In this document: positions 16,610-25,723 of the stretch, one piece after another
How positions within the stretch are numbered: position 1 is the first letter of the stretch
Layout: every line of letters starts with the position of its first letter
Assembly: GCF_018066915.1 (NCBI RefSeq)
Contig: NZ_JAGPVV010000019.1
Coordinates: forward strand, 1-34,307
Length of the DNA stretch: 34,307 bases
Source of the DNA: Roseovarius sp.
GTDB taxonomy: Bacteria > Pseudomonadota > Alphaproteobacteria > Rhodobacterales > Rhodobacteraceae
Direction: 5' to 3'
Notes under the pieces: model-generated
Told to the model about the DNA's origin: nothing
The model's database searches: none
The model's input: the letters and a program-made list of their open reading frames with translations, nothing else
Program-made: the position numbers and the translations under genes

Positions 16610-17164
16610 TTACAGAACTGTAACGACTGTGCCGATCGGCACGCGTTCGTAGAGATCCTGCACATGTTCGTTAATCATCCGGATACAGCCGTTCGAGACA
16701 GAGCGCCCGATGGACGAGGGCTGTGTCGTGCCATGAATCCGGTAATAGGTGTCGCGCCCGTTCTGAAAAAGGTAGAGCGCGCGGGACCCGAGCGGATTGT
16801 CGGCGCCGCCGGGCTGCACATAGTCATTGCCCTTGAACCGCCCATAAGTATGCGGATCGCGTTCGATCATCTCGTCGGTCGGGCGCCAGGTCGGCCATTC
16901 TTTCTTGACGGCGATGGTGGCGGTGCCGGTGAATTCCAGCCCCGCCTTGCCCACGCCCACGCCATAGCGGCGGGCGCGGCCCGGTTGGGTCACGAAATAG
17001 AGAAAATGCGCGCGCGGCAGCACGATGAGCTGACCGGGTTGATAGACCGGATCGAAAGAGACCTCCTGCGGCATGAACCGCGGATCAACCTCGAAGGCAT
17101 TGGCAAGGGATGCTGTGCCCATGGCGGCGAGGCCAGTGGCCATGAATGTGCGGCGATGGATCAT
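16610..17164 (-). CDS. L,D-transpeptidase (YkuD family)
   Basis: L,D-transpeptidases crosslink meso-DAP residues in peptidoglycan or attach proteins to it, using a catalytic cysteine in the periplasm. The 184-residue protein has an N-terminal export signal (MIHRRTFMATGLAAMGTASLANA, Tat-like RR followed by a hydrophobic stretch) and the YkuD domain ending in the catalytic motif HGTTQPSSIGRSVSNGCIRM with His, Ser and Cys present. AGGAGG lies upstream of the ATG. Many Rhodobacteraceae carry several such enzymes, so the individual role is not assignable. Confidence 0.93.
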   Translation of the reverse strand: MIHRRTFMATGLAAMGTASLANAFEVDPRFMPQEVSFDPVYQPGQLIVLPRAHFLYFVTQPGRARRYGVGVGKAGLEFTGTATIAVKKEWPTWRPTDEMIERDPHTYGRFKGNDYVQPGGADNPLGSRALYLFQNGRDTYYRIHGTTQPSSIGRSVSNGCIRMINEHVQDLYERVPIGTVVTVL

Positions 17165-17283
17165 CGGGAACCTCCTGAACTATGGGCTCGTTTATAGGAC
17201 GGGTCGCGGCGGTGGTAGAAATCAAAATGCGTTCACATCTCGCGTTCTGGCCGGAACTGTTGCGATCCGGTCGCGCGCGCGCC

Positions 17284-17376
17284 TCAGATCGCGGCCCAAT
17301 CGGTGAAGCGGTATGGAAAGGGGGAACGGTGGACCGGCACGTTCGAATGCAGCGGCGGGGTGTTGCGGCGTATCAT
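17284..17376 (-). CDS. Probable 30-residue microprotein
   Basis: This short frame, absent from the ORF track, reads MIRRNTPPLHSNVPVHRSPF and continues to YRFTDWAAI before a TGA. It is supported by a perfect Shine-Dalgarno AGGAGG five bases before the ATG, GC-rich third positions like the neighbouring genes, and its position in an otherwise gene-free 301-base gap between the efflux pump and the L,D-transpeptidase, on the same strand as both. It is basic, Pro/His/Arg-rich, with no signal peptide or membrane segment. I do not recognise a family. A leader peptide for the transpeptidase gene is an alternative. Confidence 0.5.
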   Translation of the reverse strand: MIRRNTPPLHSNVPVHRSPFPYRFTDWAAI

Positions 17377-17465
17377 AGTGGCCTCCTGTGCTTGTTCTCT
17401 CAAACACGTGGGGGCGGTGGGGGTCAGTGGCCAGAGGCGCTAAAGCAATCGTGAACCTCAGTGAG

Positions 17466-18689
17466 TCATTTGGGCGACAACCCCAGCCTCCGTTCGCGGC
17501 GGATGACGGCGAGGATGGTCACAATCGCCGCGAGCGCCGTCGAGAGCATCAGCCCCAGCAAGGCATAGGCCCCGCTGCCGGGGGTGAGAAGCGTGCCCGC
17601 AAGCGCCGAGAGGCCCGCGCCGATGCCAATCATAAGCGCGCCCGACAACCCGCTTGCCGTGCCTGCAAGGTCCGGGCGGATCGACAACGCGCCGGCGGTG
17701 GCATTGGGGATCACCATGCCATTGCCAAGCCCCATGAAGGTCATCAGCCCAAAGAACGTGAATGGCGTACCCAACCCCACGAGAAACAGCGTGAGATTGA
17801 GCGCAATCCCCCCCGCGTTAAAGAGCGTGCCCCAAAGCACCATGCGGTTGACGCCGATGCGCATGGAAAATCGCCCCGAGGCGAAATTGCCGAGGAAATA
17901 GCCAATCGCCGGGGCACCGAACAAGAGCCCAAGTGTCGATGGAGGCAGGCCAAAGACCCGATCCCCCACAAAGGGCGCACCGCCCAGATAGGCAAAGAAC
18001 GCACCCGAACTCAGCCCCGCCGCAAGCGCATAGCCCCAGAACCTGCGCGAGGTCAGAAGCGCGGGATAGTCGCGGAACTGCTGCATCAGGGTCCGGCCCG
18101 TGAGGGGGGCGGTCTCGCCCAGATCACGCCAGCAGACGACAAAGAGCGCGGCCCCCAGCACGAAGAGCGCCCAGAAATTCGCTTGCCAGCCAAAGGCTTC
18201 GTCCAAGAGCCCGCCAAAGGCCGGGCCGATCATCGGCACCACCGCCATGCCCATGGTCACATAGCCGATCATCGAGGCGGCCCGGTCCTGAGGAACCATG
18301 TCGCGCACGATGGCGCGCGACAGGACCATGGCGACCACAACGCTGGCCTGCACCATGCGAAACGTCAGGAAGACCGTGATATTGGGGGCAAAGATGCAGC
18401 CCAAGGTCGCCACTAGAAAGAGGCCAAGACCCCAAAGAATGACCGGCCTCCGCCCCCACCGGTCCGAGATTGGCCCCATCAGCAGTTGAAGCCCGGCATT
18501 GACCCCGAGGTAGAGGGCGACGGAAAGCTGAATCAGCCGGTATTCGGTGTTGAAATAGGCTGTCATCCCCGGCAGGCTGGGCAGGAAGATGTTCATTGCA
18601 AGCGCCGATAGGCCCGCCAGCAGGATCAGCGTCGAGATATGCGGCGGGGTGGTGCGGTCGAGATAGTTGGATGTCTGTGCGCGGGTCAT
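17466..18689 (-). CDS. Bcr/CflA family multidrug efflux MFS transporter
   Basis: The 407-residue protein has about twelve hydrophobic segments. The N-terminal pattern LSALAMNIFLPSLPGMTAYF, followed by the MFS loop GPISDRWGRRPVILWG and the helix 4-5 region RMVQASVVVAMVLSRAIVRD, identifies the Bcr/CflA drug:H+ antiporter subfamily (12-TM DHA1). Members export bicyclomycin, chloramphenicol, sulfonamides or cysteine-like compounds; the natural substrate here is unknown. It diverges from pccB and shares the 169-base regulatory region that holds the TTTGC elements. Confidence 0.92.
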   Translation of the reverse strand: MTRAQTSNYLDRTTPPHISTLILLAGLSALAMNIFLPSLPGMTAYFNTEYRLIQLSVALYLGVNAGLQLLMGPISDRWGRRPVILWGLGLFLVATLGCIFAPNITVFLTFRMVQASVVVAMVLSRAIVRDMVPQDRAASMIGYVTMGMAVVPMIGPAFGGLLDEAFGWQANFWALFVLGAALFVVCWRDLGETAPLTGRTLMQQFRDYPALLTSRRFWGYALAAGLSSGAFFAYLGGAPFVGDRVFGLPPSTLGLLFGAPAIGYFLGNFASGRFSMRIGVNRMVLWGTLFNAGGIALNLTLFLVGLGTPFTFFGLMTFMGLGNGMVIPNATAGALSIRPDLAGTASGLSGALMIGIGAGLSALAGTLLTPGSGAYALLGLMLSTALAAIVTILAVIRRERRLGLSPK

Positions 18690-22819: not shown

Positions 22820-24819
22820 ATGTTCAAGAAAATACTGATTGCCAACCGGGGCGAAATCGCCTGTCGCGTGATCAAGACCGCGCGCAAGATGGGGATTGCG
22901 ACGGTGGCGATCTATTCCGATGCGGATCGCAACGCGCTGCATGTGCGCATGGCCGACGAGGCTGTTCACATCGGACCGGCACCCGCCTCTGAGAGCTATA
23001 TCGTGATCGACAAGGTGATGGCCGCCATCAAGGCCACGGGGGCCGAGGCGGTGCATCCCGGATATGGCTTTCTGTCCGAGAACCCCAAATTCGCGCAGGC
23101 GCTCGAGGCGGCGGGTGTGGCCTTTGTCGGGCCGCCGGTGCGGGCCATTGAGGCAATGGGCGACAAGATTACCAGCAAGAAGATCGCGCAGGAGGCCGGC
23201 GTCAGCACCGTGCCCGGCTACATGGGCCTGATCGCCGATGCCGAAGAGGCGGTGACGATCTCGAACCAGATCGGCTATCCGGTGATGATCAAGGCCTCTG
23301 CCGGGGGCGGCGGCAAGGGGATGCGTATCGCCTGGAATGACGAAGAGGCGCGTGAGGGATTTCAATCCTCCAAGAACGAGGCCGCGTCGAGTTTCGGGGA
23401 TGACCGCATCTTTATCGAGAAATTCGTCACCCAACCGCGCCATATCGAGATTCAGGTGCTCTGCGATACCCACGGTAACGGCATCTATCTGGGCGAGCGG
23501 GAATGCAGCATTCAGCGCCGGAACCAAAAGGTCATCGAAGAGGCGCCGAGCCCGTTTCTGGATGAGGCCACGCGCAAGGCGATGGGCGAGCAGGCCGTGG
23601 CGCTGGCGCAGGCGGTGGGCTATGCCAGTGCGGGCACCGTGGAATTCATCGTCGATGGCAAAAAGAATTTCTATTTCCTCGAGATGAACACGCGCCTTCA
23701 GGTGGAGCATCCGGTGACGGAATTGATCACCGGCGTTGATCTGGTCGAGCAGATGATCCGGGTGGCCAATGGTGAGGCGCTCAGCCTCACGCAGGCCGAT
23801 GTAAAGCTCAAGGGTTGGGCGATGGAGAGCCGCCTTTATGCCGAAGACCCCTATCGCGGGTTCCTGCCGTCGATCGGCCGTCTGAGCCGCTATCGTCCGC
23901 CCGAGGAATTGGCCATCGAGGGGCCGTGGTGCGCAATGACACCGGCGTCTTTGAAGGCGGCGAGATCAGCATGTATTATGACCCGATGATCGCCAAGCTC
24001 TGCACCTGGGGCCATACCCGCGCCGAGGCGATCGAGGGCATGCGGGTGGCACTCGACAGCTTTGAGGTTGAGGGGATCGGGCATAACCTGCCGTTCCTCA
24101 GTGCCGTGATGGATCATCCGCGCTTTGTCAGCGGCAATATCACCACGGCCTTTATCGCCGAGGAATATCCCGAAGGCTTCACTGGCGTCACGCTGCCGGA
24201 AGAGGCGTTGCGCGCGATTGCGGCAAGTACGGCGGCGATGCACCGTGTCGCCGAAATCCGGCGCACGCGGGTGTCGGGGCGGATGGACAATCACGAGCGG
24301 CATGTGGGCGAGGATTGGGTCGTGAACCTGCAAGGCCACAGCTATGCCGTGGTGGTGGCGGCGGATCGCGGGGGGGCGACCGTGCGGTTCGACGACGGCG
24401 ACACCCTGCGCGTCACAAGCGACTGGACACCGGGCGATCAACTGGCGCGGCTCGATGTGGATGGCCGGGCGCTGGTGCTCAAGGTCGGCAAGATCAGCGG
24501 CGGGTTCCGCATCCGCACACGCGGCGCCGATCTCAAGGTGCATGTGCGCACGCCCCGTCAGGCGGAATTGGCGGCGTTAATGCCCGAGAAACTGCCGCCT
24601 GATACATCAAAGCTGCTGCTCTGCCCGATGCCGGGGTTGATCGTGAAGGTCAATGTCGCGCCGGGCGACGAGGTGCAGGAGGGGCAGGCACTCTGCACGG
24701 TGGAGGCGATGAAGATGGAAAACATCCTGCGGGCCGAACGCAAGGGCGTGGTGGCAAAGGTCAACGCCGGACCGGGCGACAGTCTGGCGGTGGACGATGT
24801 GATCATGGAGTTCGAGTGA
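22820..24819 (+). pseudogene. pccA: Propionyl-CoA carboxylase alpha subunit, split by a one-base frameshift
   Basis: PccA carboxylates its own biotin and hands the carboxyl group to PccB. The first frame (22820-23989) carries the biotin carboxylase domain: [17 protein letters not shown], the ATP-grasp loop [12 protein letters not shown] (about 157), and [14 protein letters not shown]. Near 23920 homology jumps to the -1 frame (to 24819), which reads [25 protein letters not shown], then the BT domain and the biotinyl site EAMKMEN (about residue 630). Restoring one G in the run GAGGGGCC (23918-23925) yields about 666 residues, the normal length. Either a sequencing error or a recent inactivating mutation explains this. 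The ribosome-binding site is good. Confidence 0.92.
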
Positions 24820-24823
24820 GCGG

Positions 24824-25723
24824 ATGATACCTGATTATCAATCCTTGATGAAGCCGGTGCTTGAGTTGGCGGCGTCCGGAGAGATGAAAATCTCGGACGC
24901 GGTCACTCAATTGGAGCGAGCATTCCGTCTCACTGAGGATGAGAGATCAGAGTTGTTGCCAAGCGGTAAGCAGACGAAGTTTGCCAACCGAGTACATTGG
25001 GCACGCAGTTATCTAAAGCAAGCTGGTCTTCTTCGAAATACGCGACGTGGACATTTCGAGATTACTGAAGAAGGACGCCGAGTACTGAACGCGAAGCCCG
25101 AGCGGATCGATGCAAAGTTTCTCTCGCGTTACGATGCATTCTTGGAGTTTAAGGCGCGATCAGGCTCTACAGGTGATGAACCACTAGAAATAGTGCCTTC
25201 AAGTGCGACAACACCGGACGAAGCGATGCGCGTGTCTTATGAGCAAATCGCAAATGCGTTGGCGGCGGATATCCTGTCGCGCCTGCGCGAGGCAGAACCC
25301 GCATTCTTCGAGGGGGTGATTGTCGATCTGCTCTTGAAAATGGGCTATGGCTACGGAACGGCAGCGGGTAACGTGCTCGGCCAATCTGGTGATGATGGGG
25401 TGGATGGAGTGATCAACCTCGATCCCTTGGGCGTTGATCAGGTCTATGTGCAAGCCAAGCGCTATCAGGCTGGGAGTCCTATCGGATCAGCGGCGATCCG
25501 GGATTTTTACGGGGCGCTGGGCCTGAAGGACGTAACTAAGGGTATATTCGTCACTACCTCGTCTTTCAGTCCGAATGCCCGAGCGACAGCGGAGAAGTTA
25601 GGCGCGCGGATCGTGCTCATTGATGGGCCTCAACTTGCGCGCTTGATGGTGGCACATGAAGTCGGTTGTCGTGTGACAGAGATCTTCAAAGTTTCAGTGG
25701 TCGAGGAGAGCTATTTCGAATGA
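24824..25723 (+). CDS. mrr: Mrr-type restriction endonuclease (type IV)
   Basis: The 299-residue protein matches Mrr, a nuclease that restricts methylated foreign DNA. An N-terminal winged-helix domain (about 5-95; YQSLMKPVLELAASGEMKISDAV to HFEITEEGRRVLN) is followed by the catalytic PD-(D/E)xK-like domain: FFEGVIVDLLLKMGYGYG, SGDDGVDGVINLDPLGVDQVYVQAKRY with Asp and the QAK motif, then KGIFVTTSSFSPNA. The length is close to E. coli Mrr. It begins 4 bases after pccA. G+C counts in two 60-base lines (25021: 30; 25141: 29) are far below a line of mcm (28081: 42), suggesting horizontal acquisition. No partner methylase is seen. Confidence 0.92.
   Translation: MIPDYQSLMKPVLELAASGEMKISDAVTQLERAFRLTEDERSELLPSGKQTKFANRVHWARSYLKQAGLLRNTRRGHFEITEEGRRVLNAKPERIDAKFLSRYDAFLEFKARSGSTGDEPLEIVPSSATTPDEAMRVSYEQIANALAADILSRLREAEPAFFEGVIVDLLLKMGYGYGTAAGNVLGQSGDDGVDGVINLDPLGVDQVYVQAKRYQAGSPIGSAAIRDFYGALGLKDVTKGIFVTTSSFSPNARATAEKLGARIVLIDGPQLARLMVAHEVGCRVTEIFKVSVVEESYFE

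Follow-up and report, generated by a model that had tools for sequence, protein, structure and literature searches.

We have analyzed a stretch of DNA of 34,307 nucleotides from a Roseovarius genome (the window), and within it a 301-bp gap that runs from the stop of a gene for an MFS efflux transporter (17466) to the start of a gene for an L,D-transpeptidase (17164). An open reading frame (ORF) of 30 codons lies in this gap on the reverse strand, with no second credible gene beside it. The features of the locus, read 5' to 3' along that strand, are the following:

17466..18689, (-), Bcr/CflA family MFS efflux transporter; a neighbour, given as context
17431..17464, (-), upstream element TCAC-N6-TCAC-N16-CTGG (TCACTGAGGTTCACgattgctttagcgcctCTGG), 88 bp before the ATG; candidate operator or promoter of the microprotein
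17387-17382, (-), Shine-Dalgarno sequence AGGAGG, 5 bases from the ATG; a purine-rich site is retained in relatives
17376-17374, (-), ATG of the microprotein ORF
17284..17376, (-), microprotein ORF, 30 codons plus TGA, product MIRRNTPPLHSNVPVHRSPFPYRFTDWAAI; open and kept in relatives, with pS above pN
17284..17307, (-), C-terminal motif F-T-D-W-A-A-I plus stop, common to about 190 distinct microproteins with variable synonymous codons; judged from the sequence comparison, it is the conserved, functional part of the ORF
17191..17227, (-), a TTTTGATT block (17227-17220) and TATAAA (17196-17191), from an alignment of 19 transpeptidase-linked loci
16610..17164, (-), YkuD L,D-transpeptidase with a possible TAT signal; a neighbour, given as context and outside the unit

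A preliminary description of this locus had reported a perfect AGGAGG five bases from the ATG of a 30-codon frame in a gap otherwise empty of genes, and this was borne out at 17284-17376 of the reverse strand. It had also ranked the ribosome site above those of most genes in the window, which holds because only 4 of the 34 genes called there have a site as good. Gene calling relied on a home-made program. When the whole window was scanned for intergenic ATG ORFs of 20–80 codons preceded by at least six bases matching AAGGAGGTGA, the microprotein ORF was the only one returned. Elsewhere in the window, the alpha subunit of a propionyl-CoA carboxylase is split into two overlapping frames, 22820-23989 (+) and 23815-24819 (+), with the break inside the Biotin_carb_C domain; this comes either from a frameshift mutation or from an error of assembly (the genome is in 363 contigs). 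Directly after the carboxylase genes lies a Mrr-type restriction endonuclease with Mrr_N and Mrr_cat domains (24824-25723, (+)).

We compared the DNA of this region with 40 whole genomes, and in the congeneric ones found, at the corresponding position, ORFs of 28–40 codons whose bodies differ but whose tail is shared, F-x-D-W-A-A-[I/L/F]. The tail was searched, as the motif followed by a stop and with TGG allowed as an internal contrast, in a family sample of 298 Rhodobacteraceae genomes, one per genus. The strict C-terminal pattern was present in 98 of them. Stop-ending matches far outnumbered TGG-ending ones, and nearly all closed an ORF of 19–73 codons that has both an ATG and its own ribosome site; the control, in which the pattern was reversed, had a total of 32 matches. 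Altogether we have found about 190 distinct relatives, 19–73 codons long and each with its own ribosome site, in Roseovarius and across the Rhodobacteraceae.

The microprotein is restricted to this family. Some 380 other alphaproteobacterial genomes contained only two stop-ending matches, both without a usable start, and the motif as a general alphaproteobacterial feature was therefore rejected. A scan of named genomes gave mostly Rhodobacteraceae, including Jannaschia, Aliiroseovarius, Paracoccus, Salipiger and Phaeobacter, with a copy also in Rhodobacter capsulatus DSM 1710 (L212), which belongs to a species amenable to laboratory work; the matches outside the family were stray ones, mostly without an ORF. 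The locus is not universal in Roseovarius either, where 26 of 60 genomes have the strict motif; about half of the genomes of the genus do without it, so the microprotein is dispensable. Pattern searches of the genome of the window recovered apparently one copy only. Several genomes carry two or three, sometimes in tandem, whose bodies differ while the tail stays the same.

Over the 192 distinct ORFs collected, the median length was 37 aa and the ORFs ended exactly at F-x-D-W-A-[S/A/M]-[I/L], the penultimate residue being S in 86, A in 77 and M in 18, and the last one I in 166, L in 19 and F in 7. As the search pattern itself partly dictates that F, D, W and A do not vary in this set, we took a motif-blind sample, reading the DNA upstream of the TfoX_C genes (a frequent neighbour, see below) of 121 family genomes regardless of the motif. 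The ORFs found there had tails such as ITDWASI, ITDYASL, FTDFASI, IRDFASI and FRDYASI. These conservative variants keep D, A, an aromatic residue and the terminal I/L, while F and W vary, indicating that the core is hydrophobic-x-D-[W/Y/F]-A-[S/A]-[I/L]-stop.

A short conserved intergenic stretch, with conserved DNA blocks on both sides, could also be a DNA or RNA element (an operator, a small RNA or a terminator) open in one frame by chance. The codons speak against this. Both TCN and AGY codons are in use for the penultimate Ser, and selection is thus on the residue itself. The codons of Asp, Phe and Ala vary freely, with third positions variable. Synonymous differences numbered 521 over 1282 sites, against 462 replacements over 4157 sites (pS 0.41 and pN 0.11, from pairs that are not independent), and the ORF of the window compared with its relative L003 gave a pS of 0.61 and a pN of 0.23. 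Besides, changes of length keep the frame, every copy has a start and a ribosome site, and Rfam gave no match for the region of the window ORF. We regard a nucleic acid element as extremely improbable. Two of the checks put forward in the preliminary description, frame disruption in close relatives and a bias towards synonymous substitution, gave matching answers: the transpeptidase-linked relatives stay open for 28–40 codons and end in the same motif, and pS exceeds pN. This ORF is a genuine conserved gene, beyond chance, and the small functional protein that had been suggested is supported by the conserved family, the purifying selection, the conserved start region and the fixed C-terminus.

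The rest of the chain is different in character. The bodies of the 192 ORFs contain 20% Pro, 12% Gln, 10% Arg and 7% Lys, with few hydrophobic residues, and fold prediction, in which 32 relatives were included, gave no secondary structure and a pTM of 0.13. Because of this composition and the absence of a predicted fold, the fast-evolving, Pro/Gln/Arg-rich body is probably disordered. One version, MVYKSQNKQIKTPKRVVRYLRQQTPPKTDRTKTEEPETPAVVFTDWASI, is found in Aliiroseovarius and relatives (L180, L202, L251, L282 and L293) with 92–98% identity over its full length and changed synonymous sites; in this Aliiroseovarius-type lineage the body, to judge by these substitutions, is constrained too.

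A conserved element at a free C-terminus, carried by a disordered, tether-like chain, is also what a degradation signal would look like, and the product might then be a very short-lived peptide read by an AAA+ protease or its adaptor and acting as a decoy or a timer. ClpXP recognizes AA-type C-terminal signals. However, the set of hydrophobic residue, Asp, aromatic residue, Ala and I/L is more specific than such signals, and longer proteins with this tail were not prominent among the matches. We consider this explanation unlikely.

The surroundings of the gene are diverse. A gene with a TfoX_C domain (confirmed with Pfam) follows the ORF at 43 of 110 loci, mostly at a distance of 15–190 bp, and beyond that gene there is usually a convergent nucleoside diphosphate kinase, named by eye from its sequence. 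Another 11 are upstream of a transpeptidase, 24 have a cold-shock gene (CspA) within 2.6 kb, and others have an FnrL-like regulator or genes of ATP synthase nearby (both named by eye, with no family search). Of 169 non-redundant copies, 47 (about 28%) are followed by a gene on the opposite strand, which in some cases overlaps the stop by 4 bp. Fifteen of the 169 stand alone between opposite-strand genes; at two Roseovarius loci, L158 and L161, an opposite-strand gene lies within 20 bp downstream of the ORF. The microprotein is thus independent of the downstream gene. TfoX_C was considered as an obligate partner and rejected, since the microprotein is present in genomes G105 and G110, where TfoX_C has no match. 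A subgroup of copies near the FnrL-like regulator or the ATP synthase genes (L063, L066, L074, L097, L118 and L188) starts with M(T)FCTAH, placing a Cys and a His near the N-terminus, which hints at a response to metal or oxygen.

With a competence-family TfoX_C gene as the commonest neighbour, and with differing precursors that share one C-terminal heptapeptide, the product might be a precursor that is processed into a secreted signal, with the heptapeptide released and sensed and the paralogues yielding a near-identical mature peptide. The streptococcal XIP pheromone, likewise a short peptide from a C-terminus and with a Trp in its core, offers a likeness. Against such a precursor, the ORFs have no hydrophobic export segment, the neighbouring genes include no recurrent exporter or peptidase, and the two genomes without a TfoX_C match have the microprotein all the same. 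This makes a pheromone very unlikely.

The other role proposed in the preliminary description was that of a leader peptide for the L,D-transpeptidase. In the general form of this idea, ribosomes that translate the ORF, and perhaps stall at its tail and stop codon, would control the gene downstream. The arrangement is suggestive, as in the window and in about 20 relatives the ORF lies on the same strand and 64–254 bp upstream of the transpeptidase, the 43 loci with TfoX_C repeat the picture at mostly 15–190 bp, and a motif fixed at the C-terminus beside the stop resembles an arrest peptide. However, stalling in cis is contradicted by the copies that have no same-strand gene downstream, including those that overlap an opposite-strand gene or are flanked by such genes on both sides, and many unrelated genes take the place of the transpeptidase. 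The RNA of the window folds no better than shuffled sequences (z-score 0.35), and no terminator or attenuator-like structure was found at the ORF. The signal sequence, the RAPP-like motif and the sec/yidC neighbour of the Sec/YidC arrest peptides (PMC10987492) are missing as well. Finally, the TTTTGATT and TATAA blocks, conserved in relatives, lie 3' of the microprotein stop and before the transpeptidase start; they suggest a candidate separate promoter of the transpeptidase, with a spacing that is not canonical for sigma-70, although transcription from the ORF may also read through into the gene. The leader peptide is left unsupported by these data, and control in cis seems to us improbable.

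On its other side the microprotein has an upstream element of its own. The repeat TCAC-N6-TCAC, located at 17464-17450 in the window, was found in 28 of 180 non-redundant upstream regions where 0.42 were expected, at a near-fixed position that is mostly 77–95 bp before the ATG, and in Roseovarius it is followed by CTCTGG. A weight matrix for the element placed 44 of the 180 regions above the 99% control threshold. It is also present at the Roseovarius copies L158 and L161, which have no transpeptidase behind them, indicating that the unit consists of the element and the ORF. Genome-wide there are 33 sites of the form TCAC-N6-TCACR, and as nearly all of them are within genes we claim no large regulon. 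CenR of R. sphaeroides, which binds TGA-N8-TGA and has an L,D-transpeptidase in its regulon (PMC9275681), was for the latter reason a candidate regulator; it was not identified as the reader of the element, its half-sites lying 11 bp apart as written, against the 10-bp repeat here. A second enriched dyad, ATCC-N5-GTGA, was discarded, as in nearly every case it corresponds to the 3' end of the MFS gene, which is itself conserved. Outside Roseovarius (for example at L035, L036, L294 and L088) the element seems to extend to TCACA-N~8-CA-N~6-TGAAACA, a further conserved block.

A motif that is strictly C-terminal on a variable body, under selection for amino acids and not for DNA, leads us to favor, with reasonable though not high confidence, a cytosolic, disordered microprotein that acts in trans and uses its C-terminal heptapeptide as a docking motif. 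This fits the evidence better than a leader peptide. The variable Pro/Arg/His-rich body would serve as a tether, and the heptapeptide with its free carboxylate (hydrophobic-x-D-aromatic-A-small-I/L) as a short linear motif that would dock in one conserved pocket of a putative partner present throughout the Rhodobacteraceae. Paralogues of one genome, expressed from separate promoters, would share this pocket and would probably modulate the partner under differing conditions. A bolder extension, tentative and in our opinion rather doubtful, is a signalling code across the Rhodobacteraceae, in which many disordered microproteins of unrelated appearance, with their own promoters and the tail F-x-D-W-A-x-I as a key, compete for one hub. 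If true, the hub protein would integrate many conditions, in a kind of microprotein hub network that has not been described before.

The family is apparently undescribed. Pfam and NCBIfam have no family for the window ORF or for five relatives, and in the open literature, to which the search was confined (subscription papers and sORF databases lay outside it), we found no relevant paper with the motif, and nothing pertinent on small proteins or TfoX of Rhodobacter. By the strict motif alone the family is present in about a third of the sampled genera, and very short ORFs are a blind spot of gene finding that can hide a family-wide component. The seven-residue C-terminal handle makes the putative partner directly findable by pulldown.

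Several known systems share some of these traits. The his and trp leaders are amino-acid attenuator leader peptides, short ORFs with a strong ribosome site, and the microprotein resembles them in both respects and in its His and Pro codons. However, its 3 His are scattered over 30 residues with no regulatory run of codons, there is no attenuator fold, and it is not tied to a biosynthetic operon. The DUF1127/YjiS-type proteins are likewise short (often under 50 aa), basic and present in several copies per alphaproteobacterial genome, and in Agrobacterium they reportedly act by protein-protein contact with the sensor kinase PhoR (PMC12501420). The microprotein differs from them in having another sequence, no Pfam match, no predicted fold and conservation of the C-terminus only. 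The Sec/YidC arrest peptides (SecM, ApdP and the RQH family; PMC10987492) are also short upstream ORFs with a variable N-terminal part and a conserved C-terminal motif, whereas the microproteins are hydrophilic, with 20% Pro, without an N-terminal localisation signal or RAPP-like motif, without secA, secDF or yidC downstream, and often with no same-strand gene there at all. Another proline-rich short upstream ORF is CutF, which has a poly-proline sequence and reportedly acts on the downstream gene cutO (PMC10987492). The microprotein, unlike CutF, is not bound to one downstream gene. In proteins with docking tails at the C-terminus, such as SSB with its acidic tip, a disordered linker ends in a short conserved peptide that has a free carboxylate and docks in a pocket. 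The microprotein has the same combination of a probably disordered linker and a short conserved tail with a free carboxylate, and may dock in the same way, although with a different tail sequence and with no folded domain attached to it.
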